DNA of 32,999 bases, taken from the NCBI GenBank assembly GCA_030595715.1, contig JAUVCN010000022.1, positions 1 to 32,999 on the forward strand, given 5' to 3'. Below, piece by piece: positions 4,090-24,955 of the stretch; position 1 is the first letter of the stretch; each line of letters opens with the position of its first letter. The translations under genes and the position numbers were made by a program. The notes beneath the pieces were generated by a model. It saw nothing but the letters and a program-made list of their open reading frames with translations. It did no database searches and was not told the origin of the DNA. Source of the stretch: Thermoplasmatales archaeon. GTDB taxonomy: Archaea; Thermoplasmatota; Penumbrarchaeia; Penumbrarchaeales; Penumbrarchaeaceae.

Positions 4090-7000
4090 TCAGGCCTTCC
4101 TGATCTGATGTCCGGCTTTCTTGGAGAGGAGGATCGCCTTCTTATATTCCCTCAACGAGAATGCCTCTTTGGCTTTATTGTAGATGCGGTTTGCACCAGA
4201 GGTATCTATGCCCTTCCTCTTCTTGGTCAGTATTTCCACATGGGCATTGTTCATTTCATCGAAGGCAGAATCCCTGAGCGATTGTTGATCGATCTCTGAG
4301 AGCATGATCTTGGCCAATGTGATCATCTGTCTTCCCTTATCGAATTCATCCTTTTCAAAATGCTCCCGTGCTTTATCGAAGAGGAGTGATACCTTCGATG
4401 TATCGATACCTTTGTTCTTCAGTTCAGCGATACCGATCTCGACATTCCTTGACATTTCAGTTGCCTGTGATGATCTGAAGACGTAGAAGAACTGCTGGAT
4501 GTTTGCGATGTCGATCTTTTCAACCTCGGCCCTGGCTTCCTCTGCTTTGGTCTTTGCTGCCTTGAACTTCTTGTTCTTGAACATATTCCTGGCCTCATCC
4601 AGTTTATTCTCTGATGGGCCCAGCTTCTTTGACACTCCCGAGAAATTGTCAATGAGATAATGAATCATCGCATCGACGAATTCGATGGTCTCGAGCGATG
4701 TCTCCCTCATATTCCTCTTGACAATATCCTTAACAGATGTTCTGACACTCTTGATCAACTTCTCGGCATTTTCGATCTTCCCATCAAGAAGTGCCTGTTT
4801 TGCCCGAGATAATAATTTTTCCGAATTGGACACATTGGATCCAAGGGTCTTCAGTTTGGTCAACATCTGTTTGACCGAAGCTACCTCTTTGCCTAGCAGG
4901 CTCTCTGTCTCATCCAGTTTGGTCTTCTCAATGGACCTCAAGACATCCCTTATCTCGATATTGGCCTCGGCCAATTCTCCTGACCTGAGCATTACAGCGG
5001 CCTTTTTTATCTTTGCTTTGAGTTGATCGGACTCCTCCGCATCGGCCTGCATTTCCTTGATACCGGAGGTTGCACTGGAAATATATTTCTTGACGAGGTC
5101 AGCCATCTTTGGTTCTGCTTTCTTCTTTAGGATCTTGTCGGTCTTCTCCAAGATCTTACTCAGGACCACAATATCCACAGGATCGACGGAAAGTAATTTA
5201 TCAGCTCTCGTGAAAACCTTTTCCAGCTTTGTCATCTTCTTGATGCCGATCTCTCTGAGATCGGAATAGAGGGCCTTTTGTGTTTCGAGCACATCCCTCA
5301 GAGAATCAACTTCGTTCATGACCCTGATCTCCTCACCCAGTTCAAGGATCGAGCTGAACTTTGACACCGCTTTCTTATCTTCTCCCTGTGTATGGAGTTC
5401 TTTTCCCTCCTCATAGATCTTGACAAGGTTACTTATGTCGATATCCCTTGAGCTAAGTTCTTCGAAATATGATTCGATCTGCTGCATGTAGCCTTCAGCT
5501 GTTGTCCTCTGGAATGAGTTCAACTTTGCATTTGCGCCCAATAGTGCAGTTTCAAGGTAAGCTGTGGCATCCATGAATTGACTTTTATCGAGGGCTTCCT
5601 GGGCTACGGATACCATATATTCTTCATCTTCTGTGGGGATGCCCATCTGTTTAAGCTGCTGGACCTGTTTTTCCAATTCCACCAGTAGATCTCTGTATTC
5701 CTTCTGTTCATAGGCCCTGGATGCTTCGTCAAGGAGTTCCCTTCCATTTTCGATCTCGCTCATCGCCCCATCGAGATCACCTCGTTCGAAGAGCTCGTTG
5801 GATATTGTGAGCTTGTCCTGTATATTTATGACCTCGATCCCTTTCGAATGTGCCTCTACCATTTTCCCCTTCAACTCGGACAGGTCCCGTTGAACCTTCT
5901 GGACTATATAGGGTCCCTGGTTCCTATGAAGAACATCCTGGATCTGTAGATTGATCTCATCGCATCTATCTAGATCTCCCCTTCTAAGAGCTACTTTAAG
6001 TTCCCGGATAAGCTTTTCTTCGAATGTTGTGTCGACCCCCATGTCCCTCATGTTCGCAAGGAGGATCTCTGTTGTCTGGATGGACGACTCCATGAGCCTT
6101 TTCTTCATCTGGACCCGCTTTTCGTTCAATCCTATCTTGATCCCTTCCAGAACATGTTCTGCCTGGTCGAAATCCGCCTTGACGAGAAGTTCACCTGCGA
6201 GGCTGAACATGTCTGTCTCATCACTGATGTCGATGTTCTCAGCCTGTGCCACGGTGAGGAGTGTCCTCACCTCATCGTAATATGTCTGCACGATCTCTCT
6301 TCTTTTTGATGTTTCCTTCTGGTCAAATGAACCCTCAAGGAATTTGATGACCTTTCCCATCAATTTATGCGAGATCTCGAAGTCTCCTCTTTCAAAGGCA
6401 TCCTTGGCCATGTTGATATTGTCACGGGATAGATCCACCTCATTATCCATTCCCACGGTCTTTTCCATGATCTTATTGACATGATCGATATTGTTGAGGT
6501 ATTTATCCTTGTAGAAATCGTCTTTTCGATTCTTGAAATCTTCTTGGACCTTTTCAATGGTCTCAAGAGCTTGATCATAGTTCTCGTTATTGAAAAGATC
6601 TTCAGCTTCTTTCAAAAGGCCGGTAACGTCATCCAGTTCGAGGCCCTTGGCAATTGCGTGATCTATCTGTTTCTGTACATCGACAAGGGTTTCGGGGATG
6701 GTGAGGGATACCTGGGATCTGTAAACTTCATTTGAGATATCCTCTGCCTTGTTCAGCCCGTCAACGGTAGATATCAGATCCCCGTCATCCATATGACCTG
6801 TAGCTTCATTCAGATAAGATCTGGCCAGTTCGGTATCAAGTCCCATCACTTCCAGTTTTCCAACTTTTTTTGCAATAACTTCCATTTTCTTTGGAACCTC
6901 TTCTTTGAGATAGGATCCCTTTGAGAAGTTCAGATGTTCCTTGATATCCAATGTCATGGAATATGCTTTTTCATATTTCTCCTCCATGAACAGCCTCTCG

Positions 7001-9336
7001 GCCTCTATCATCAGTGTCTCTGCTTCGATCGTGCTGATGCCTATATCGCTCAGTTGGCCGATCTCATTTTTAAGGGTGGAGATGGTATCCATTGCACCGT
7101 TCGAAAAATAATCCTGTCTCTTTTGGTCGATGGTCTCCTTTGCCTGGTAGACCATATCATTGACCTCATCGTACATCTCCTTCTCGAAGTAGGTCTCAGC
7201 CTCTTCAAGAAGATCACTGGCATCATCTATGTCCAGTCCAAGCTCGTTTGACTCCATGAAGTAGTCCTTCAATCCATCCAGGTCCTCTCTGATATGGCCT
7301 TTCTTGGATTCCATCCATTTCGATTTTACGGATGATTCGATCCTGCTTGCAATGTTTTTGGATGCACGATAATCCCCGTTTCTCAACAGGTTCTTTGCCT
7401 CGATGAGAAGTCCAGTCTGGTCTTTGACATCCACGCCAGCTCTGTTCGCTTCTTCGAAGAGGAATTCCGCTGAATTGATAAGTGCCTCTGCCTCATCGAG
7501 ATCTTTCTGATCCTGTATTTCGTGGATCTGATCATTGACCTCTTTCAGGAGTCCACCGGATGAGAGATATTCCCTGTCTCTGTATAATATTCCTGCATCC
7601 TCTATCTTTTTTTCGAGATGGGTTGTAATTTCCGGTTCAATGTCTGTCGAATCCATGGATCCCTGGATATTGGTCACCCAGGAGTTGTAATTATCTCTGT
7701 AATACTCAGACATCTCCTTATCGAGGTCGCTCCTGATCAAAGTGAGTTTTTCGGAATAATCATCATCTTCGATGTCGGTCAACAGACCCTCGATCTCTTC
7801 AAGCCTCTTGATCATGTTCCCTTTCTTTTCGGTCTTGATGTCCACGTTATCAAGGAGGTTTCTTATTCTGCTGTTCTCATGATCGAAATCCTCGATCCGG
7901 ATCTCTTTCTTCTTTTCACGGACCATTCCCTCTGCAACATCCACCTCTGCCATGACACTGTCCAATTTCAGGTCTTCCAGGAGGAACATTTGACCGATCT
8001 TAAGGATCTCGTTATTTATCTCATCGATCTCAATGTTTTTCGCCAGGAATCCCTCGATATCGTCAAGAAGACCAATATACCTGTTCTTTGATGATTCCAG
8101 AGACATCTCACCGTCGGCCTTTGTGAATATCGATTCAGCCATGGATAGATATTCCATGGCCTCTGTGATGTTCCTGTTCTCCAGTGAGCTTATCGTGGAG
8201 GTCCTCAGATCCATTATATTGCTTCTATCATTATCTGTCAATCCTGCAGCGCCTTCAAGGTCTCTGTCCACTGTCTTCAATCTCTGATTTGCCTGCTCCT
8301 CGAAGTTCTCGAAGAGGATATCCTTGATATCCGTCAGAACCTTTTGACCTTCATCCATGAATTTCTTGGGTGGATGGGTGGTTACGTCATCTTTCAGTTC
8401 TTCCAATCTCTTCATCTGGTCGGAAAGGTTGATAAGGGGACCATATTCATCGATAAGGTCCTGGGCATCAAATATCGATAGGTTTCCCTTTCTTCTGAAG
8501 TATTCCTTTTCGGTTCTTGATATACTCTTCGCAAGTCTGCTCAATGCTGATTGTGCCTCGATGACATTTGATGGGTCCAGACCTTTATTCAATCTATCCA
8601 GCTGCTTGGATATGGATTCCTCTCCCAATCCCAATCTTTTGAAATCCTTCATGGTCTCTATCATCTTCTCCAATTCATCCTTGATCACCTTGAAGCGATC
8701 CTTAGAGATATCATCGATACCTTCGTTCTTGACAATTGTATATAGAAGGTTCGAATAAACGAGGATGTTCTTGACGTCCCCCTTTTTCAGGAGTGTCTTG
8801 ATCTTTTTGAAATACTTCTTGTGTTTTGGTAGATCTGTTTTGGACCCGGTGATACCTTCGAATGCGTTCAAGGCCTTATCGAAGGATGTGAGAGTTTCCG
8901 AGGAAAGGAGTTCCGGATATCCCTCCGAGATCGATTCGATATCGGACAATACCCCATCGATACTTTTTTTAACCTGGTCGGGGCCTTTTTTTGAACCTTC
9001 CAGTTTTCCCAGTCTCGTTCGGAAAGCGGATGTATCAACTTCCTTTTCATCGAGATCATTGAGGATCCAGATAAGAAGGTCTCTAATCATGGTGTTTCTC
9101 TGTTCTCTCCATTCGATCCACCCTTCATCGAGGAGTTCTTCGAGCTCTTCACCGCTCTTTTTCACTCCTTTATCGCCCTTTTTCAATTCCTTTTTATATG
9201 TGGTCATTCGCTTTTTAATACTATTAACAGGGATGTTCAGCGATCTCAATTGGTCCATCCGCCTCTCCATCTTTTCACTGGAGGTAAGGTCCAATTCATT
9301 CTCAGAACCATCTTTCTTTCCCTTTTTGGCGGCCAT
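4090..9336 (-). CDS. Giant helical-repeat protein (1748 aa)
   Basis: A single 1748-residue frame starts at an ATG preceded by a good GGTGATGG site. It has no signal peptide or hydrophobic helix, so it is expected to be cytoplasmic. The Lys-rich N-terminus (first about 60 residues) precedes an entirely helical, very acidic and basic chain. From about residue 564 to the end a unit of about 66 residues repeats. Each unit has a G-[ILV]-D hinge, then about 13 residues later an Ala in a pattern like LLxEAExLFxxxxYxxA, then a coiled-coil connector. Units are divergent, and weaker copies appear before 564. Half of each unit resembles a TPR hairpin. A disordered protein and a KaiC-like ATPase lie upstream on the same strand. 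A scaffold or filament role is inferred from architecture only; I recognise no named family. Confidence 0.85.
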   Translation of the reverse strand: MAAKKGKKDGSENELDLTSSEKMERRMDQLRSLNIPVNSIKKRMTTYKKELKKGDKGVKKSGEELEELLDEGWIEWREQRNTMIRDLLIWILNDLDEKEVDTSAFRTRLGKLEGSKKGPDQVKKSIDGVLSDIESISEGYPELLSSETLTSFDKALNAFEGITGSKTDLPKHKKYFKKIKTLLKKGDVKNILVYSNLLYTIVKNEGIDDISKDRFKVIKDELEKMIETMKDFKRLGLGEESISKQLDRLNKGLDPSNVIEAQSALSRLAKSISRTEKEYFRRKGNLSIFDAQDLIDEYGPLINLSDQMKRLEELKDDVTTHPPKKFMDEGQKVLTDIKDILFENFEEQANQRLKTVDRDLEGAAGLTDNDRSNIMDLRTSTISSLENRNITEAMEYLSMAESIFTKADGEMSLESSKNRYIGLLDDIEGFLAKNIEIDEINNEILKIGQMFLLEDLKLDSVMAEVDVAEGMVREKKKEIRIEDFDHENSRIRNLLDNVDIKTEKKGNMIKRLEEIEGLLTDIEDDDYSEKLTLIRSDLDKEMSEYYRDNYNSWVTNIQGSMDSTDIEPEITTHLEKKIEDAGILYRDREYLSSGGLLKEVNDQIHEIQDQKDLDEAEALINSAEFLFEEANRAGVDVKDQTGLLIEAKNLLRNGDYRASKNIASRIESSVKSKWMESKKGHIREDLDGLKDYFMESNELGLDIDDASDLLEEAETYFEKEMYDEVNDMVYQAKETIDQKRQDYFSNGAMDTISTLKNEIGQLSDIGISTIEAETLMIEAERLFMEEKYEKAYSMTLDIKEHLNFSKGSYLKEEVPKKMEVIAKKVGKLEVMGLDTELARSYLNEATGHMDDGDLISTVDGLNKAEDISNEVYRSQVSLTIPETLVDVQKQIDHAIAKGLELDDVTGLLKEAEDLFNNENYDQALETIEKVQEDFKNRKDDFYKDKYLNNIDHVNKIMEKTVGMDNEVDLSRDNINMAKDAFERGDFEISHKLMGKVIKFLEGSFDQKETSKRREIVQTYYDEVRTLLTVAQAENIDISDETDMFSLAGELLVKADFDQAEHVLEGIKIGLNEKRVQMKKRLMESSIQTTEILLANMRDMGVDTTFEEKLIRELKVALRRGDLDRCDEINLQIQDVLHRNQGPYIVQKVQRDLSELKGKMVEAHSKGIEVINIQDKLTISNELFERGDLDGAMSEIENGRELLDEASRAYEQKEYRDLLVELEKQVQQLKQMGIPTEDEEYMVSVAQEALDKSQFMDATAYLETALLGANAKLNSFQRTTAEGYMQQIESYFEELSSRDIDISNLVKIYEEGKELHTQGEDKKAVSKFSSILELGEEIRVMNEVDSLRDVLETQKALYSDLREIGIKKMTKLEKVFTRADKLLSVDPVDIVVLSKILEKTDKILKKKAEPKMADLVKKYISSATSGIKEMQADAEESDQLKAKIKKAAVMLRSGELAEANIEIRDVLRSIEKTKLDETESLLGKEVASVKQMLTKLKTLGSNVSNSEKLLSRAKQALLDGKIENAEKLIKSVRTSVKDIVKRNMRETSLETIEFVDAMIHYLIDNFSGVSKKLGPSENKLDEARNMFKNKKFKAAKTKAEEARAEVEKIDIANIQQFFYVFRSSQATEMSRNVEIGIAELKNKGIDTSKVSLLFDKAREHFEKDEFDKGRQMITLAKIMLSEIDQQSLRDSAFDEMNNAHVEILTKKRKGIDTSGANRIYNKAKEAFSLREYKKAILLSKKAGHQIRKA
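4093..7647 (-). repeat. Array of about 66-residue (198 bp) protein repeats
   Basis: Hinge positions in the giant protein, counted by hand, fall at residues 634, 700, 766, 832, 898, about 966, about 1034, 1100, 1166, 1232, 1298, 1364, about 1433, 1499, about 1569, 1643 and 1709. Most intervals are exactly 66; the exceptions are 68-74. Examples of the conserved core are GLDIDDASDLLEEAETYF and GLELDDVTGLLKEAEDLF. The DNA copies have diverged, so this is an old protein-level duplication and not a recent DNA tandem repeat. Confidence 0.8.
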
Positions 9337-15154: not shown

Positions 15155-18100
15155 TTAGGTCTGTTCAAAGGTGCTGATCCTTTCAGCAGGATAGAATCTG
15201 GCGGATTTGGAATCCCTGGTATATGTGACGACTCCCCCTCTGATGAGGTTCTTAACATGGTAGTTCACTACCTGACGTGAAACACCTATGGACCTCCCTA
15301 TCTGTTCCATGGTCACCCCCGGATGGTCCAGGATAATATTGAAGATCTCCTCCTGCTTGGACACATTCTTCTTCAATTTGCTGATATTGATATTTGCCGG
15401 GTAATATCTCTTGTAGATCCCATCATACATGGATTTGATGAAGCCATTCTGTTCAAGGACCTTCAAGTGATACGCAAGGGTTCCATTGTTCAGATCGAGG
15501 TTCCTTTTGATGGATGAATAGTGATCACCTGGATTGGCAATAATATAACCCCTGATCAAACCCCGGATCTCATGGTTGAGGATATCCTTCTTGCTGAGCT
15601 TCGAATAGATGGACATGCCAGCAGTCACCATTGTGACAAAACCCACCTCGGACCAGAGCAAGAACAGGATCCCTCCCATGATGATGCCACTCAGACCACC
15701 AATTATCGCCCAAGGAGTATCATTCTCATCCGGGTCTTTGGGGGCGATAATGCTATCAGTGTAGCTTTGGGTGTCCTTCCCATCATCTCCCGGGGGTCTT
15801 TCAGGTTCTTCTCGGGGGGTCGGTGGGTCGAAAGGCCAGAGTAGTTTGATATACTCCGTTGTCGAAGTTCCTACCCCATCATAGGCTCTGATGAACACAT
15901 ATATACCGGAACCTGGAACGGCCTTCTCTTCGACAAGGAAGGACCAGCTGGAAAAACCCCAGGAATCCCTCCATTCTCCCGTCCCGATCCTGTATTCTAT
16001 CCTTCCTCCGGAATCATCCGGATCCGTAACGATGCCAGAAATGACCCACCCCATATCCCTCTGGTATTCTACATCCTGAATGGCAACTTCAGGAATATCA
16101 TTTACCTCTTCTATCTCTACCTTCAAGCGGTCTGTAAGGGTGATATTCTCTCCGATAAGCTCTATCCATACGGTCTCCTGTCCAAAAAGATCCTGAGATG
16201 GGATCAGGAACAGGTAAGGTTCGTTACCTGACAGGTCAAAATAAGTGTGTAATCTTGGATCCGATGAATATGAAAGGAGCTCATATTCTGAAAGGTGTGT
16301 ATCAGGATCGACCATCCATCCATTCAATTCGATCTTTGTTGGAGTATCTTGATCCTCGCTGAGGACGATCAGTCCGGGGTTCTCTCCGATCCATGGTTTG
16401 GAATCTATGTTCTTGATCCTGAGATGTACGATCGCAACAGCTTGCTCGGAAGGTTTTGTGAATGGATCGTTCGCCGTGATCTCCAATCTAGCCGTTCCAC
16501 CCATTCCCGTTATCAGAGGAGAGATGGTCAAATGATCCTGTTCCATTGATATTTCCAGATGATCCATCAATTCCAGAGGTTCTGTTGAGATGATCCTTTG
16601 ATCGAAGGAAAGAGTATCCCCGTCGGGATCAATGAACAGTCCTTCGGGACCCGAAAGCTGGATCTTTGCTTCTTCTCCCTCGATGATGTGTATCTCATCC
16701 ACACCATTGATCAGGACCGGTGGGTCCTGTACCGCAAGGACCTTAAGTGTGATCGGTGAGGAAACGGATATGGAATATCTGTCCCCGACCCCTATCTGGA
16801 AAACGATCTCTCCATATAGGTCCGGATATTCGGATGCATGTGAGATAAGACCTCCATTCCTGTCAATGAAAAGGAGGCCGAGGGGAATCTCGGATATTGG
16901 AAGGATATCAAGGTCCAGCATTTCCACATCCATAAGGTCATCTTCAAGGTGGTTCCTGATGTTGATAAGGGTGGTTCCCAGGGATCCTTCCATTATCTGC
17001 AGTTCGGATGGCATCGATGGAAGGATGATCGGAGGTGAATCGTAAGTAACCTCTGCAGGGCCAACCATGACCTTCCCACCTGATCCTGCAGAGACCATGA
17101 AGGGAATGAACGCATCATCGAAGTCATCTTGGGCTTTTTGTACAGATAAAAGGAAGCTCTGTGAATTGGATGCTTCGAAGGTGATGTCGTAGGTGATGGA
17201 GAGGCCACCGAACGATATGAACCCATTCGATCCTTCAATGTCAATGTCAATCCTGTGCAAGATATTGCCATACTCATCCGATAGGGTTGGGGTTAGAGAG
17301 CTGGTTTGGATCAGTTCACCGATATCCAATGATGTGGCACTCGTTCCAGAAAACGTATGATCCAATGTGGACTCTATCGAAGATAATGAGATCTCCTCCA
17401 CACCCTTCCAGATCAAGTCCGACATGATCAATCCATCGGTCTTTTCGATGGAATAGATCTTCCCCGATCCATCCAGGTCCATATCGCCCAAGATGGATAA
17501 TGTCCGAAGGCCATGTCCCTGGGAAAAGATATGGGTCCCGATCGGATCGGATACGGGGATCAGGTGAAACAATCCGTCATGGGAAATTGCGTAGAGGAAT
17601 CCTTCCGAGCCAATGTATGCGCCGGAATCACCATAAGTGTCCCGTGTCAACACGCGGGGTGAGGAGGTTGTAATATTGAAATCGATCCAGGACCAGGACA
17701 CCTCATTTTCACCATTTATCCCGATCACGGCCATATCATCATATTCACCTGATGTGAAATAGAACTCCTGACCCCCATCTCCGTCCATATCCAATGTTGC
17801 TCCCACTCCATTTATAGAAAGGTGGGATCCAAGGTCTACATAGGTTTTCTGATCTTCTACTTCCCTGTCGCCTGAAAGGATGATAGTTACATTTTCATTC
17901 TCCGGGAACAGGATAAGGTCCATTTTCCCATCGCCATCGGCATCAAGGGATCCTACACCGGAGATATTGGTGATGTCATTCATGATCAACTGTTTCATCA
18001 ACGCTCCACTTTCTGTGAAAGAGCACCTGGAGATTCCAATTCCAGAATCACCTATTACCATGATCTCTGTTCTTTCATTCCTTCCGTTCTCCAATACGTG

Positions 18101-19000
18101 GAATCCGATCTTATCGGGAGAGAGTCCTGATGAAAGGACCATTTCCTCCATCCCGATATCAGGATCACCCTTCAGGAACGAGATCCTGTCCCTGTCCGCG
18201 CTCGTATTTGAGTATTGAACTATTATGCCGCCGATCTGAACATCATTCCAACTGATCGCCCGAATGATACTTCTTCCAACCACATCCGACAGGATCATGT
18301 GTCTCTTTGGCGAGGAGTTATTGATCAGATCGATCATATAGACCGCTGAATCGGAAGTGGAATGATATATGATCTCGTCCAAACCATCGTTATCGATATC
18401 ACCCGCATCGATGGATTCCACATTAACATCCGATGGAAGGAGATCGAAAAGGTTGATCTTCAAGCCGCTTTCCGGTGTTGGCGGGGTCGATATCTCAACA
18501 TTGGAATCATAGACCTTTGCCCCTCTTGGGATCAACAGTGATATCTCATTTCCCCTTCCGGAGATCAATTCTCTATTGATGGTGCTTTCGGTGATGAAGG
18601 TGTTCTGTTCACCCATTGTTCCTTCCGCCCCTTCTCCGAAAGCCCATTCGATCCTTCCGTCTATTCCGATGTCTATGGAGACAAGATCAGGACCCTTCGC
18701 TCCTGGAACCGTGGATATTGTAAAGGATGTGCTGATAACCGGACCTTCACCGGGAATGGGAAGTGAAAGACTTGGATCGATCCCACCATTCGGCCCGAAT
18801 TCCAGAATGATCGAATCGTATTCCATATTTCCTTTCTTGATAATCTTTGAAACTTCACCATTCGATAGCATGGGTAATACGGAGGATATCACCATGACCG
18901 AAAGGATCAGGATCGAAATGAATGTGATCGAGATGCTGCCGAACGATCTTCTTCCTCGGGTACTTTGAAGCTCTCGTCCGGATCTTTCGCATTCACTCAT
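15155..19000 (-). CDS. Transmembrane receptor with VCBS/cadherin-like ectodomain and two cytoplasmic wHTH domains
   Basis: A 1281-residue protein. A hydrophobic segment at about 23-45 is a signal sequence or first membrane anchor. The ectodomain (about 46-1095) holds several FG-GAP/VCBS-type Asp-rich loops: DIDNDGLDE (201-209), DADGDGKMD (353-361), DMDGDGGQE (404-412), DMDLDGSGK (506-514). Two cadherin-like beta domains with DPDGD and DPDTH loops and a fibronectin-like segment follow. After a Pro/Asp-rich linker, about 1096-1135 is strongly hydrophobic (one or two membrane helices). The last 146 residues form two winged helix-turn-helix domains: one with SSIKRNLDLNNGTLAYHLKVL and wing GIYKRYYP, the other with MEQIGRSIGVSRQVVNYHVKNL and wing ARFYP. 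It looks like a one-component membrane-bound transcription regulator. Ligand and targets are unknown. Confidence 0.88.
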   Translation of the reverse strand: MSECERSGRELQSTRGRRSFGSISITFISILILSVMVISSVLPMLSNGEVSKIIKKGNMEYDSIILEFGPNGGIDPSLSLPIPGEGPVISTSFTISTVPGAKGPDLVSIDIGIDGRIEWAFGEGAEGTMGEQNTFITESTINRELISGRGNEISLLIPRGAKVYDSNVEISTPPTPESGLKINLFDLLPSDVNVESIDAGDIDNDGLDEIIYHSTSDSAVYMIDLINNSSPKRHMILSDVVGRSIIRAISWNDVQIGGIIVQYSNTSADRDRISFLKGDPDIGMEEMVLSSGLSPDKIGFHVLENGRNERTEIMVIGDSGIGISRCSFTESGALMKQLIMNDITNISGVGSLDADGDGKMDLILFPENENVTIILSGDREVEDQKTYVDLGSHLSINGVGATLDMDGDGGQEFYFTSGEYDDMAVIGINGENEVSWSWIDFNITTSSPRVLTRDTYGDSGAYIGSEGFLYAISHDGLFHLIPVSDPIGTHIFSQGHGLRTLSILGDMDLDGSGKIYSIEKTDGLIMSDLIWKGVEEISLSSIESTLDHTFSGTSATSLDIGELIQTSSLTPTLSDEYGNILHRIDIDIEGSNGFISFGGLSITYDITFEASNSQSFLLSVQKAQDDFDDAFIPFMVSAGSGGKVMVGPAEVTYDSPPIILPSMPSELQIMEGSLGTTLINIRNHLEDDLMDVEMLDLDILPISEIPLGLLFIDRNGGLISHASEYPDLYGEIVFQIGVGDRYSISVSSPITLKVLAVQDPPVLINGVDEIHIIEGEEAKIQLSGPEGLFIDPDGDTLSFDQRIISTEPLELMDHLEISMEQDHLTISPLITGMGGTARLEITANDPFTKPSEQAVAIVHLRIKNIDSKPWIGENPGLIVLSEDQDTPTKIELNGWMVDPDTHLSEYELLSYSSDPRLHTYFDLSGNEPYLFLIPSQDLFGQETVWIELIGENITLTDRLKVEIEEVNDIPEVAIQDVEYQRDMGWVISGIVTDPDDSGGRIEYRIGTGEWRDSWGFSSWSFLVEEKAVPGSGIYVFIRAYDGVGTSTTEYIKLLWPFDPPTPREEPERPPGDDGKDTQSYTDSIIAPKDPDENDTPWAIIGGLSGIIMGGILFLLWSEVGFVTMVTAGMSIYSKLSKKDILNHEIRGLIRGYIIANPGDHYSSIKRNLDLNNGTLAYHLKVLEQNGFIKSMYDGIYKRYYPANINISKLKKNVSKQEEIFNIILDHPGVTMEQIGRSIGVSRQVVNYHVKNLIRGGVVTYTRDSKSARFYPAERISTFEQT

Positions 19001-19315
19001 ACAATGTTATTATTTTTTCCCTGGTATAAGTTTTTATCTGTAGGTTTTTGCCTGGCCAGGCCAGTGGATCCATACCAGGACCTTGATATGTTTGGTCGGT
19101 TGGATAAGATCTTTCCGATCGATATTCACAAGGCAAGATATTTGCAGAACACCATGGAATATTACGAATAGATCACACACTGTGGGATCAATGGAAGAAG
19201 GTTTCCCGAGCTTGAACGAACGAATAGAGCATCGGTGTTTCGCCTTCGACCTACAAACCTTAAATATCCACCCTCACCCTACTCCGGATATCAACCGTAT
19301 AGGAGGGGGAATCCT
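19001..19315. promoter_or_regulatory. Divergent intergenic region with nested dyads
   Basis: This 315-nt gap separates two divergent membrane-sensor units. It holds an 8-bp inverted repeat CCTGGTAT (19020-19027) with ATACCAGG (19072-19079). Inside the span is the perfect dyad CTGGCC-A-GGCCAG (19052-19064). The left arm overlaps the minus-strand element CTTATACC, a plausible TATA box for the receptor gene starting at 19000. A 27-codon frame at 19088-19171 is present but unsupported. The TATA box of the rightward gene is at 19258. Nothing else is evident. Confidence 0.45.
19258..19269 (+). promoter_or_regulatory. TATA box of the surface-protein operon
   Basis: CCTTAAATATCC is a near-consensus archaeal TATA element. 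It lies about 50 nt upstream of the start at 19316, giving a leader of roughly 25-30 nt that contains the strong site AGGAGGGGGA (19301-19310). Confidence 0.6.
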
Positions 19316-20689
19316 ATGGTGCCGTTTAAACAACTTGGACAGGGCAAGGTATCATTACTGGTCCTTGTACTGACAATTATCTTCGTTCTTGTTCCGTTCG
19401 ATGTTGATGTTCTTTCCCAGGGAACCATCGAGATCTCATTGGGAGATAATATCAAAGAGGGAACCATCGACCTTGATGAGGATGGAAGTTATGAATATCT
19501 ATTGATCAACATTGATCTATTGGTCTACATCCCGGGGAGCTATGGACTCCATGGGGACATGGGCCAATCAGTTACAGCGAATACGGGTCCCTTCGATCTC
19601 GGGATCGGATCCCATGAGATGGAACTCCGTTTTTCAGGTGGTGCCATCTCTCGTTCATCCCTCGCGGGTCACCTGCAAGTAGAGATCGAAGCTTATTCAA
19701 GGGATCCGACCGTCGGATCAAGGACCGGGTCTTTCATCACTGAAGGAATATATGGATCATCAATGTTCGAACCCCCATCGGGAGGAACCGGAACAGAGGT
19801 ATCGATTATAGGAGATGAGGTGGTTCTCTCCGGGCCGATCATGGAAGTGAGGATGAACAAGACCGATCCGGAACTCTCTTTCTCCTATTCCGGTGATGTC
19901 GGAAAGGATACCAGGGCATATGTCAGATACCTTGAGGTGATCGCTTACAATGACCTGGATGATGATCAGAGATGGGATCCGGACATCGATGAGTTGAGAT
20001 ATCGGACCGACCTTGATGATGTCGATTGGGAGCTCGGAACAGATTTTTCCAAGGGATATCACATTACCCTGTACGGGATCCTTCAACTTGAACTTGCAGG
20101 TACCTCCACGGTTGCAGCATGGGCAAAGATGACATTCAGTATATCATCCGAGCATATGGACATGGAAGGACCTTCCCAGAAGTTCGATATTGATATCGAT
20201 CTCTGGCAACCATTGGATGCGGAGAGGATCGCTGTTCGACATGAGATAGTTGATAGGACCGGAAAGCTGGACCTGGTCGAAGGAGAGGTAACCGAAGATA
20301 ACGAACATGCCATTACCGTCATGAAGGGAAAAGACCGTGCATATGGTACCTATTCATGGACAGATGAGGTCCAGGTGGGCAGGACTGGACCTACGGATGA
20401 AGTCATTGCCAAGAGCTGGTTCGACATACAGGCAAGTTCCGCATCGGTATGGTTCTCATATCCACTGGGCGAGGATACCCAGATCATCCATCATGACCCG
20501 ACAATGAGCATGGACCCTGAAATCCCTGCCAATGAAAATGAGGATGAGTTCCTGGTAAATCGACCGATCCTGATGATGGGCGGGTCGATCGTTGGCATCA
20601 TTGTCATCACGGGGACGATCTTTATGAGACGGAGGATGGGAATGAAGGGCCCAGGAGATGATGACCATGGAACAAAGGGGGGTGATTGA
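19316..20689 (+). CDS. Secreted, C-terminally anchored surface protein
   Basis: The protein has 457 residues. The ATG at 19316 is chosen because AGGAGGGGGA lies 5 nt upstream and a signal sequence follows at once (KVSLLVLVLTIIFVLVPF, residues about 12-29); the frame is open further upstream. The mature part is acidic and beta-rich (repeated Gly, Asp and Thr, no Cys motif). At the C-terminus a hydrophobic helix (about ILMMGGSIVGIIVITGTIF) is followed by RRRMGMK, so the bulk is outside and the tail inside. An Asp-rich stretch DLDDDQRWDPDIDE may bind calcium. It is the first gene of a unit with a small membrane protein and a double-wHTH protein, which suggests the sensory or structural arm of that unit. 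No named family recognised. Confidence 0.8.
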   Translation: MVPFKQLGQGKVSLLVLVLTIIFVLVPFDVDVLSQGTIEISLGDNIKEGTIDLDEDGSYEYLLINIDLLVYIPGSYGLHGDMGQSVTANTGPFDLGIGSHEMELRFSGGAISRSSLAGHLQVEIEAYSRDPTVGSRTGSFITEGIYGSSMFEPPSGGTGTEVSIIGDEVVLSGPIMEVRMNKTDPELSFSYSGDVGKDTRAYVRYLEVIAYNDLDDDQRWDPDIDELRYRTDLDDVDWELGTDFSKGYHITLYGILQLELAGTSTVAAWAKMTFSISSEHMDMEGPSQKFDIDIDLWQPLDAERIAVRHEIVDRTGKLDLVEGEVTEDNEHAITVMKGKDRAYGTYSWTDEVQVGRTGPTDEVIAKSWFDIQASSASVWFSYPLGEDTQIIHHDPTMSMDPEIPANENEDEFLVNRPILMMGGSIVGIIVITGTIFMRRRMGMKGPGDDDHGTKGGD

Positions 20690-21004
20690 ACGGACACTAT
20701 TGGCATTGCAGCCATAATCAAGGACCTCCTCGTTGGCATTCTGATAGTCCTTTCCTTCGCTCTTACCATGATCGGTTATCTTTCCTGGTCAAGGTCGAAA
20801 AGCCCGAGGATCGCCATGGTGACGATCGCCTTTGGTGTGTTCCTCTTCAAGGGACTTTTCCTTGCCATTGGTCTTTACCTGACCGGATGGGTCAGCGTAC
20901 CAAGGGGATTTGCCGCAGCCTTCGATATCATGCTCATATCGGACTTTCTGGTGCTGCTGATGCTCTACACCGCCCTCTTCAGGAAGAAGAGGGGGGGTAT
21001 GTGA
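20690..21004 (+). CDS. Small three-helix membrane protein (start uncertain)
   Basis: The first standard start is the ATG at 20768 (78 aa), but it lacks a ribosome binding site and cuts the first hydrophobic helix. The frame is open back to 20690, immediately after the upstream TGA, and the extension completes a helix (IAAIIKDLLVGILIVLSFAL). GGGGGGTGAT (20677-20686) is ideally spaced for the ACG at 20690; ATT at 20699 is another option. The extended product is 104 residues with three membrane segments and a basic tail (FRKKRGG). Size, topology and position before a wHTH gene recall small membrane proteins found beside archaeal wHTH regulators (DUF7521-like), but this is from memory of the pattern. 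A single-base error or true non-ATG initiation are both possible. Confidence 0.65.
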   Translation, partial: TDTIGIAAIIKDLLVGILIVLSFALTMIGYLSWSRSKSPRIAMVTIAFGVFLFKGLFLAIGLYLTGWVSVPRGFAAAFDIMLISDFLVLLMLYTALFRKKRGGM

Positions 21005-21020
21005 GCGGGGTGCGTTCCGG

Positions 21021-21548
21021 ATGAAGGATGACCCCCTGGAACTGGACACTCGCAAGCGGATCTATCAACTCATCGAATCCACTCCCGGTATCCATTTCAG
21101 GGAGATATCGAGAAGACTTGATATTCCGATGGGTGTTGTTGAGTATCATATCCATTACCTGATCAAGAGGGATATGATCATTGCCCGGAAGGAAGGGAGA
21201 TACAAGAGGTACTACACGGAAGGAAAGGTTGGTTCCAGGGACAAGAAGGTACTGGCATTCCTCAGGAAGGATGTTCCCCGGAGGATAATAATGCATATCA
21301 TGTTGAACCCGGGGGCACGGCATAGGGATCTGAAAAATGAACTGGATGTATCAGGTTCGACGCTTTCGTTCCACATCAAGAAGATGATCAGGAAGGAGGT
21401 CATCAGGGAAGCTGATGACAACGGAACCAAGCGCTTTTATGTGGTGGATCAAGAAGCTGTTTCCAGGACACTGATAGTCTACAAGGGATCGTTCATGGAC
21501 GATCTGGTCGACTCCTTCACCGAGACCTGGATGGAAATGGACCTATGA
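21021..21548 (+). CDS. Tandem winged-HTH transcriptional regulator
   Basis: A 175-residue soluble protein whose ATG follows GGGGTG (21007-21012) by 8 nt. It has two wHTH domains. Domain 1 (about 8-65) contains FREISRRLDIPMGVVEYHIHYL and wing GRYKRYYT. Domain 2 (about 80-145) contains HRDLKNELDVSGSTLSFHIKKM and wing GTKRFYV. A short acidic helix closes the protein. Both domains resemble the cytoplasmic wHTH pair of the receptor encoded at 15155-19000, including the KRYY wing. It is the last gene of the surface-protein unit, 16 nt behind the small membrane protein, which could tether or control it. The 3' end overlaps the convergent gene by 6 nt. Confidence 0.88.
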   Translation: MKDDPLELDTRKRIYQLIESTPGIHFREISRRLDIPMGVVEYHIHYLIKRDMIIARKEGRYKRYYTEGKVGSRDKKVLAFLRKDVPRRIIMHIMLNPGARHRDLKNELDVSGSTLSFHIKKMIRKEVIREADDNGTKRFYVVDQEAVSRTLIVYKGSFMDDLVDSFTETWMEMDL

Positions 21549-22022: not shown

Positions 22023-22874
22023 CTACCACCTCTCCCTTAGATCGATCCCTATCGTATCTCCGTCAACCTTCGGGATCGCCAGGCTATGCCGTTTATGCCT
22101 TGTAGCTTTGACCGTTTCAATTATTCTGGTAACCAGTTCCACTTCCACCGGAGGTTCGAATCCAGCCCTATCCATTTCATCAATGGATGTGCTGGTGTGA
22201 TCGATATTATCTGCTATGAGGTCGGGCTGCAGACCAATTATGTATCCTTTGAGGATCTGGTCAAGGATAGGATATGGTACACCCATTTCTCCTTCGTCCG
22301 TCTGACCATGAACCAGTCCGGCACTTGGAGCCCTATCGATAATGGATCCAGGGATCCCGATATCCGATGCAAGCTCTCTCACCTGAGTTTTGAAAAGGTC
22401 GCCTATCGGATAGATGTCCGCTGCACCATCGCCATATTTTGTAAAGTATCCCATCAGGAGCTCGGTCTTGTTCGAAGTGCCAAATACAAGTCCGTTGTTC
22501 TTGTTCGCAAAGGTATACAGATAGATCATCCTGGCCCTTGCCATAAGGTTTCCTCTTATCATGCCATCCGTTCCGATCGGAACGGATTCCACGATGGGGG
22601 ATATGTCGATCTCCATTACTTCGATATCACATGATCGGGCTGCTTCTGCGGCAAATTCCCGATCATTCATGGACAGATCGCCGCAGGGTAGAAAGAATGC
22701 ACGGACCTTTTCCTTTCCAAGTGCACTGCACATCAGTTCGAGTAAAAGAGCTGAATCAAGTCCTCCGGATAGGCCTATCAGAGCGAGATCGGCCCCGGAA
22801 GAGCTGAACCTTGCACTGATGAATTGCTCTATGATCATTTTGGTATGTGGCACCTGACCGGGTATCAGCTCCAT
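22023..22874 (-). CDS. nadE: NAD+ synthetase, ammonia-dependent type
   Basis: This enzyme adenylates nicotinate adenine dinucleotide with ATP and amidates it, the last step of NAD+ synthesis. The PP-loop LIGLSGGLDSALLLE is evident, as are VFGTSNKTELLMGYFTKYGDGAADIYPIGDLFKTQVREL and PSAGLVHGQTDEGEMG, the family's NaAD-binding stretches. There is no glutaminase domain, so ammonia must be supplied. I chose the ATG at 22874 (283 aa) because GGTGG lies 4 nt upstream and MELIPGQ is where archaeal NadE usually begins. ATGs at 22946 and 22916 also lie in frame, but a TATA box at 22960 would place transcription start near the former. nadC on the other strand nearby supplies nicotinate mononucleotide. 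Confidence 0.94.
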   Translation of the reverse strand: MELIPGQVPHTKMIIEQFISARFSSSGADLALIGLSGGLDSALLLELMCSALGKEKVRAFFLPCGDLSMNDREFAAEAARSCDIEVMEIDISPIVESVPIGTDGMIRGNLMARARMIYLYTFANKNNGLVFGTSNKTELLMGYFTKYGDGAADIYPIGDLFKTQVRELASDIGIPGSIIDRAPSAGLVHGQTDEGEMGVPYPILDQILKGYIIGLQPDLIADNIDHTSTSIDEMDRAGFEPPVEVELVTRIIETVKATRHKRHSLAIPKVDGDTIGIDLRERW

Positions 22875-22959
22875 ACGACCACCATCGGGGTATCGGCCTT
22901 TCTTATTATTAATCATACATGGTCCGATCGTAATTGTCAGGTTCATTTTCAGTATATCT

Positions 22960-22968
22960 GTTTATAAG
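22960..22968 (-). promoter_or_regulatory. TATA box of nadE
   Basis: The minus strand reads CTTATAAAC. Start of transcription would fall near 22940-22945. That leaves a leader of about 65-70 nt for the start at 22874, or almost none for the ATG at 22946. Confidence 0.5.
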
Positions 22969-23049
22969 ATTGCGATCGATTTTTATTATTGATGAAAATA
23001 ATAGGAAAAACCTAATTATGGACTATCTCCCTTTCAAGTCGGGATAGGC

Positions 23050-23403
23050 GTGACCAACTACACGATCGAAAACATCATGGCATCCATGAACCTCAACACG
23101 AAGTTGAAGCTGAGAGAGATCTCGGAGAATATTGAGAACACAGAATACAACCCTGATAACTTTCCGGGTGTGATCTGGAGACCCAAGAACAATTACGGCG
23201 TCGTCATCATCATGGATGATGGACGCATGATGTGCACCAATACCAGGTCAATGGATGATGTGGATAGCATTTTCGAAAGAGTGACCAAGATGATGGAAGA
23301 GAAGGGTCTGATAACCCCCCGCCTCTCCTGTCCCAGCTGCGGGGCCGCGGTCGATGGTGAAGATGTGGTCTGTATTGAATGTGGAAACCTGCTTCAGGGA
23401 TGA
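23050..23403 (+). CDS. Single-lobe TBP-like protein fused to a zinc ribbon
   Basis: A 117-residue protein starting at GTG, with GGGATAGG just upstream. Residues 4-88 align by eye with one repeat of archaeal TATA-binding protein: YTIENIMASMNL (TBP: IENIVASVDL), then EISENIENTEYNPDNFPGVIWR (TBP: N-EY-PE-FPGLVYR), then DDGRMMCTNTRSMDDVDSIF (TBP: SGK-V-TGAKS-EDA). Full TBP has two such repeats; only one is here. F38 of the FPG loop is kept, while the second intercalating Phe position appears to be Met (VIIMDDG). The C-terminus adds a four-Cys ribbon: C94-P-S-C97 and C108-I-E-C111. It would have to dimerise to form a saddle. It is followed 6 nt later by a small membrane protein gene. Function unknown; regulation of transcription is inferred. 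Confidence 0.85.
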   Translation: MTNYTIENIMASMNLNTKLKLREISENIENTEYNPDNFPGVIWRPKNNYGVVIIMDDGRMMCTNTRSMDDVDSIFERVTKMMEEKGLITPRLSCPSCGAAVDGEDVVCIECGNLLQG

Positions 23404-23409
23404 TCCAAG

Positions 23410-23631
23410 ATGCGTAATGCCCAGTTAATACTGCAAACCGTTGGGGATGACCCCCTTTTCGAATTGATGGAATTGGACGAGACCTACGGGTGGACCCGTA
23501 GGATCCATACGTTGAGGTCGATATTCGAACCGAAGAGGTCACATTGGCCAGCAGTCGTCATCGGGATCGGAGTCGTTCTGGGCATTTCCCTGATCGCGGT
23601 AGCGGTCTATGTTGCGGTCACATATTCTTGA
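23410..23631 (+). CDS. Small single-pass membrane protein
   Basis: A 73-residue protein. The first about 45 residues are soluble and charged (DDPLFELMELDETYGW; IFEPKRSHW). The last 25 form one hydrophobic helix (AVVIGIGVVLGISLIAVAVYVAV) with only two or three residues after it, so it is tail-anchored in layout. It starts 6 nt after the TBP-like gene with a GGGATGATCC-type site before the ATG, so the two are one unit. Its 3' end overlaps the convergent HD-domain gene by 14 nt. Unrecognised; it could anchor its neighbour at the membrane. Confidence 0.72.
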   Translation: MRNAQLILQTVGDDPLFELMELDETYGWTRRIHTLRSIFEPKRSHWPAVVIGIGVVLGISLIAVAVYVAVTYS

Positions 23632-24955
23632 TGTCCAGAACACCTTTGGCTGCATTTTCAACGGCCTTCTTGGAACCTTCAGGGCATGATATTATCAGGC
23701 ACCAGGGAATGGGCGGTCTTCTCTGCAAGGCCCGTGCAAGAGATGAGATCGTTGAAAGGATCGTCGGCCTATCTCCAAGGACCTTTATGTCGGTCCTTCT
23801 GAGCCTTGGTTCGGAAAGTGTGAGACTGGGGTCGGGAATGTCGACGATCACCTTCCCCTCGGGAACATTTGCCTTCCTGGCGATCTCGGATCCTATCCTC
23901 CTGATCTCCTTTTCTGATGATAGTGACCTGATCTGTTCCCTTGTTCCGATCGCCCTTTCACTATCTCCGGAAACCGTTTCTGAATCGATCATGTAAGCTA
24001 CTTTGAAGAGCTGCCTGAAACGCAGTCTTGTCGCGATCTCTGCGACGAGGCCTCCCTGGTCTTTCATGTATCTGAGTATCTCGCCATCGGACATTTTCCA
24101 TATTAGTTGAAGCGCCTCTTCGGTAAGCAGTTCACCCGCACGACATAGCATCGACTCAGCTATCCTTGCAGTCTTGTGAAAGTAGACAGAGCTGTACATC
24201 AGAGATCTGGCAACAAGCATTCCTTCAAGAGCTGATATTCCTCTTTTTTCGATCATGATCTCTCCATGGAACAGGGTCGCCGTGTTCACTATCCTGTCAA
24301 GGTCGACTATTCCATATGCCACTCCCGTATAATGCGAATCCCTGAGAAGGAAGTCCAGCTGGTCAGCATCCAGAGCCGAGTGTATGATCTGATAGAGGTA
24401 ATCGGATTGGTGAAAGAAGGATTGTCCTTCCTGGACCTCCAATGTGTCCTGGACATCCGATGGAACTTTTCGATCCTGGCATATCAGGGATGCTACTTCT
24501 TTCGGGTCCATGCAATGCGATTCCAATATCTCGGGAACCGATGGTCCCCTTGTTTCCGGTGTGAGCCAATCCGATGTCCAGTCATCGGAAGAGCCTATGA
24601 TGATCTCTTTCGTGAGGGCCATGTGCTCCTTGCCCAGCCTATCATGGAAGACCTTTTCCATTGTATGGGAGAAAGGTCCATGTCCAAGGTCGTGGAGAAG
24701 ACCTGCCGTCCGAACGAGCTTAACCTCTTCTTGGTCTATCTCGATCGCATTTGCGAGCAATCCGGCCACATGGGATACTCCCAAGGAATGTTCGAACCTG
24801 GTATGATGGGCACCCGGGAATACAAGATAGGCGAGACCCAGCTGTCTTATCTGATTGAGTCTGTTCAGTTCAGGGGTAGATGCAAGGTCCAGTAATGGTC
24901 CTGATATCTTGATCGTTCCATGGACGGGGTCGTTGATGATCTTGTGCTCACTCAT
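23618..24955 (-). CDS. HD-domain phosphohydrolase (SAMHD1/dGTPase-like)
   Basis: A 445-residue member of the COG1078-type HD family, metal-dependent hydrolases related to dNTP triphosphohydrolases. The opening DPVHGTI is characteristic. TRFEHSLGVSH supplies the first His (H56), LLHDLGHGPFSHTME the HD pair (H88, D89), and ALDADQLDFLLRDS the distal Asp. All HD ligands are present. The C-terminal about 130 residues form an extra alpha/beta region (GKVIVDIPDPSLT). Likely activity is hydrolysis of dNTPs or a related nucleotide; the substrate is not determinable. It stands alone on this strand, overlapping the small membrane protein gene at its 3' end. The 205-nt gap upstream of it shows no further gene. 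Confidence 0.9.
   Translation of the reverse strand: MSEHKIINDPVHGTIKISGPLLDLASTPELNRLNQIRQLGLAYLVFPGAHHTRFEHSLGVSHVAGLLANAIEIDQEEVKLVRTAGLLHDLGHGPFSHTMEKVFHDRLGKEHMALTKEIIIGSSDDWTSDWLTPETRGPSVPEILESHCMDPKEVASLICQDRKVPSDVQDTLEVQEGQSFFHQSDYLYQIIHSALDADQLDFLLRDSHYTGVAYGIVDLDRIVNTATLFHGEIMIEKRGISALEGMLVARSLMYSSVYFHKTARIAESMLCRAGELLTEEALQLIWKMSDGEILRYMKDQGGLVAEIATRLRFRQLFKVAYMIDSETVSGDSERAIGTREQIRSLSSEKEIRRIGSEIARKANVPEGKVIVDIPDPSLTLSEPRLRRTDIKVLGDRPTILSTISSLARALQRRPPIPWCLIISCPEGSKKAVENAAKGVLDIKNM

Follow-up and report, generated by a model that had tools for sequence, protein, structure and literature searches.

The window, by which we mean the whole stretch of 32,999 nucleotides that was analysed, encodes on the + strand a protein of 117 aa (23050..23403, GTG start) in which a single lobe of the TATA-binding protein (TBP) is followed by a C-terminal zinc ribbon. 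This is a complete archaeal open reading frame with exactly one TBP lobe, and orthologs of the same one-lobe-plus-ribbon architecture were identified in seven of the eight genomes of this family of uncultured Thermoplasmatota (window genome included; 51-68% identity). The reading that we favour, with a rough probability of 0.35, is that the TBP-ribbon protein is a lineage-specific auxiliary TBP paralogue, probably dimeric, that would bind nucleic acid and would not serve as a general initiation factor.

An earlier note on this DNA had predicted one TBP repeat and a four-cysteine ribbon from the letters alone, and profile searches confirmed both. The Pfam model PF00352 (TBP) matches residues 4-84 in a single stretch (E=6.1e-20; 71.3 bits, cutoff 22.9) and is matched by all seven orthologs. 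Alignments to the NCBIfam TBP models cover one of their two lobes only, and archaeal TBPs are the closest solved structures by sequence (1mp9, 1pcz, and 2z8u). The ribbon occupies residues 93-115, with cysteines C94, C97, C108, and C111 (CPSC...CIEC) that are invariant across the orthologs. The Zn_ribbon_3 model is matched in 7/7 of them; for the window ribbon the match (E=2e-5) lies slightly below the cutoff of the model. A single-chain AlphaFold2 model built on a shallow alignment of five sequences (mean pLDDT 75.6, pTM 0.64, residues 1-8 poor) has the order of a TBP lobe. Without exception, the 43 top-ranking PDB matches of this model are TBPs or complexes that contain TBP (best E=3e-5), most TBPs superposing at an rmsd of 1.3-1.8 over 78 columns. 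The 117-aa protein is thus modelled with the TBP lobe fold.

The note had also suggested looking for an ordinary two-repeat TBP. Besides three canonical TBPs with two lobes, the genome of the window encodes a divergent two-lobe paralogue and a single TFB, and the TBP-ribbon protein is therefore not the general TBP of its genome. The divergent paralogue (L008, G000:C67:11073-11582; also L038, G001:C108) is conserved in the family, and one kinking Phe is changed in each of its lobes (FILEDG in the N-lobe and SELPG in the C-lobe).

Gene block and small membrane protein

The TBP-ribbon gene lies in a block that is kept in the loci examined (g19235-g20768-HTH-(g21543)-nadE-TBP/ribbon-(TM)-HD). Its divergent neighbour is the NAD synthase gene nadE (22023..22946, - strand; PF02540, E=1.9e-62), present in the block of all relatives checked, and its convergent neighbour encodes an HD-domain protein (23618..24955, - strand; HD and HD_assoc_2; PF19276, E=1.9e-39 and PF01966, E=2.8e-13), likewise conserved. 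An operon function in common with NAD genes was considered and dropped. In L042 and L078, the two relatives whose sequence reaches far enough downstream, nadC was not found beside the block, and for this reason no functional link to NAD genes is claimed. In the intergenic promoter region between nadE and the TBP-ribbon gene (22947..23049, + strand), a descriptive alignment of seven loci showed, some 25-45 nt before the start, an A-rich, TATA-like element that can be recognised in most relatives.

A conserved three-gene set at 19235-21548 (+ strand), whose synteny with the TBP-ribbon locus holds across the family, encodes a 484-aa membrane-type protein, a hydrophobic protein of ~78 aa, and a double winged-helix regulator. 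The 1281-aa protein encoded at 15155-19000 (- strand) combines a TM segment and a sizeable, probably extracellular part with winged-helix domains at the C terminus (HVO_0163-type HTH), and looks like a membrane-anchored transcription regulator. A 1748-aa protein encoded at 4090-9336 (- strand) is apparently repetitive and rich in coiled coils.

Six nt after the TBP-ribbon gene begins a gene for a 73-aa protein (23410..23631, + strand) that has no Pfam match. It has one hydrophobic segment at the extreme C terminus (residues 48-66 of 73, mean Kyte-Doolittle 2.85) and none at the N terminus; its relatives are alike, and the pattern fits a predicted tail-anchored membrane protein. The soluble N-terminal part is conserved (DDPLFELMELD..W.RRI..L), changes at a slower rate than the TM part, and holds the invariant residues (D14, P15, E18, L19, E21, D23, W28, R31, I32, L35, and K42). 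This fits a conserved partner of the soluble part, which we infer, from gene order only, to be the TBP-ribbon protein. The small membrane protein had been proposed as an operon partner. Its gene is indeed directly downstream and on the same strand in 6/7 loci, but the partnership is not obligatory, as in genus g4 the TBP-ribbon gene occupies the same place without it. Elsewhere the membrane gene was not detected at a convincing score.

A remodelled DNA-binding face and its possible functions

We aligned the seven single lobes against 36 N-lobes and 36 C-lobes. Positions are given in the human TBP numbering that we assigned to the lobe, where, for example, L5.1 is taken to be F210/F301. All seven members keep N8 (N163/N253), F38 (F193/F284), and T63 (T218/T309), and six keep R44 (R199/R290). 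Other positions have changed throughout: the V165/V255 position is Met or Ile and the V216/V307 position Met in every member, Lys/Arg at 204/294 is replaced by Tyr (Y49), G219/G310 is replaced by Asn (N64), and position 43 is Trp. Apart from V165/V255, each of these positions has a single residue across the seven. The loss of one kinking Phe suspected in the earlier note is real in the window, where L5.1 is Met55 and F38 is kept, so that this lobe lacks the pair of kinking Phe found in canonical TBP lobes; it is not a family-wide trait, with Met in four members and Phe in three. Furthermore, every member has a lobe of net negative charge (-1 to -5). Because of this acidity and of the several minor-groove contacts replaced in all members, DNA binding by the single lobe may be weak or lost.

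The S1 strand joins the two halves of ordinary TBP. In the single lobes, its residues I6, E7, N8, A11, and S12 are invariant and the IENxxAS segment is nearly so. Since this edge is conserved and minor-groove contacts are retained, a homodimeric saddle is our first hypothesis for the auxiliary paralogue. Two copies would pair through S1, and the symmetric saddle would grip the minor groove with Asn8, Phe38, Thr63, and Arg44, the Val-to-Met/Ile, Lys/Arg-to-Tyr, and Gly-to-Asn changes altering its specificity or affinity. The ribbon could contact a protein, be it RNA polymerase, TFB, or some other regulator, and the tail-anchored partner, in those members that have it, might hold the factor at the membrane or release it. 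The factor would probably govern a subset of promoters, not initiation in general. Against this explanation, the flanking nadE and HD genes are ordinary, and genus g4 lacks the membrane partner. Its most specific version, in which a homodimerising half-TBP with a built-in ribbon is held at the membrane by the co-transcribed tail-anchored protein and released onto its own promoters, seems decidedly improbable.

The same family-wide replacements (M/I, M, Y49, and N64), the acidity of the lobe, and the co-conserved membrane protein would also suit an adaptor with a TBP fold that does not bind nucleic acid, whose concave face would bind a protein such as the soluble segment of the membrane protein. 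We regard this as possible, if doubtful: the central DNA contacts of TBP (N8, F38, T63, and R44) are retained, and the lobe persists in g4 without the membrane partner.

Dimerisation itself, which the earlier note gave as a must unless another partner is acted on, is not supported as a necessity, as RNase HIII binds RNA/DNA hybrids with a single TBP-like lobe (PMC4132731), and bacterial single lobes have been proposed as duplex binders (PMC7221094). By analogy, a monomer could grip a double-stranded nucleic acid with its one lobe in the manner of the RNase HIII N-domain, with the ribbon as a second contact. The S1 edge that pairs lobes in TBP is, however, among the most conserved parts of the protein, and no nuclease domain is attached, making a monomeric mode unlikely.

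Less likely still is a factor that would modulate canonical initiation, negatively or as an alternative, by competing with or binding TBP, TFB, or RNA polymerase. The co-occurrence of several TBPs with one TFB is in line with such a role, as is an additional match of the ribbons of 4/7 orthologs to the TFIIB zinc-binding model (best E=2.8e-5), but generic zinc-ribbon models give stronger matches. The acidic pair L3.2/L3.4 of the TBP C-lobe contacts TFB (PMC7221094) and is Glu almost throughout the C-lobes of our set (E35 D1 and E36, respectively). This Glu pair is not conserved in the single lobes (L3.2: N5 S1 K1; L3.4: D4 E2 G1), which also speaks against a modulator.

Distribution, selection, and ancestry

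The search for relatives covered 390 genomes of one phylum (Thermoplasmatota), in which only seven members of the family score below 1e-21. The TBP-ribbon gene was not found in the other 382 genomes; among the matches listed, other genomes show a lobe-only match, like ordinary TBPs. In the eighth genome of the family (G004), neither the TBP-ribbon gene nor the neighbouring HD gene was found, and as the flanking gene is missing too, the locus is probably absent from the assembly. No ribbon-bearing relatives were found in the viral contigs, plasmids, or phages searched; the halophile plasmid matches that were checked (query coverage 88-90%) are ordinary TBPs of 186-188 aa.

Single-lobe matches at L072/L074 and L026/L075 proved to be TBPs cut by contig ends. 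Apparently, other single-lobe ORFs exist at L043/L076 and L073. The first (L076:3981-4427, G010, same class) encodes 148 aa, and in place of the ribbon its C terminus carries an extended acidic tail. The second (L073:2951-3250, G107) encodes 99 aa and lies ~0.7 kb upstream of a gene for TFB; contig C1 of its genome measures 2.3 Mb, and the ORF may be genuine or the product of a long-read frameshift.

Among the least saturated pairs of orthologs, dN/dS values were 0.091/0.447 (L042/L041) and 0.116/1.071 (L040/L012). With dN well below dS, and with orthologs sharing a gene block in 7/8 family genomes, the TBP-ribbon gene is a real gene under purifying selection.

The single lobes of the seven members cluster together (supports 94/95 in one tree and 100/100 in the other). 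That the protein might be a surviving TBP from before the duplication, a form to which the earlier note had likened it, would agree with one tree, where the single lobes are placed between the groups of N-lobes and C-lobes. The supports for this attachment are weak (76/84 and 89/65, ~87 columns), and constraining the single lobes with the N-lobes or C-lobes of the family itself was not rejected (p-AU 0.32 and 0.30). As the gene is confined to one family among the 390 genomes, our results favour derivation from a two-lobe TBP, a recent derivation being the more economical account, and we consider a pre-duplication origin very improbable. The chance that the ORF is a truncated gene, a pseudogene, or an assembly artefact is negligible: truncated TBP ORFs do occur at contig ends in the phylum (L074 and L075), but this gene lies mid-contig in the window under strong purifying selection, and the identical complete architecture in seven independent genomes rules out a second repeat lost by assembly error.

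Comparison with known single-lobe and two-lobe proteins

TBP is thought to have come about when a single duplex-binding lobe was duplicated. A conserved, free-standing archaeal lobe in which most contact positions are still recognisable would make it possible to test directly the capabilities of one lobe, whether it dimerises, and how partner specificity changes. The set of three canonical, one divergent, and one half TBP beside one TFB suggests that this archaeal lineage diversified its TBPs.

With the archaeal two-lobe TBPs (PF00352), the TBP-ribbon protein shares the lobe fold, the sequence family, and the N163/N253, F193/F284, and T218/T309 positions; it differs in having one lobe, a fused ribbon, and Met, Tyr, and Asn on the DNA face, and in lacking the Glu pair that contacts TFB. 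Single-lobe (monopartite) archaeal TBP-domain proteins are mentioned in PMC7221094, citing Brindefalk et al. 2013. Like ours, they are free-standing single lobes in an archaeon; the ribbon fusion and membrane partner, which are not known to have been described, would set our protein apart. RNase HIII also carries a single TBP-like lobe within a multidomain protein, but there the lobe accompanies a catalytic domain, whereas here it accompanies a ribbon and is far closer to archaeal TBP. Given these archaeal reports and RNase HIII, the single lobe as such is already known. No earlier description of the conserved ribbon fusion, the altered DNA face, or the membrane partner was found in the literature searched, and the TBP-ribbon fusion with its altered DNA-binding face looks like a previously undescribed variant of the TBP family.
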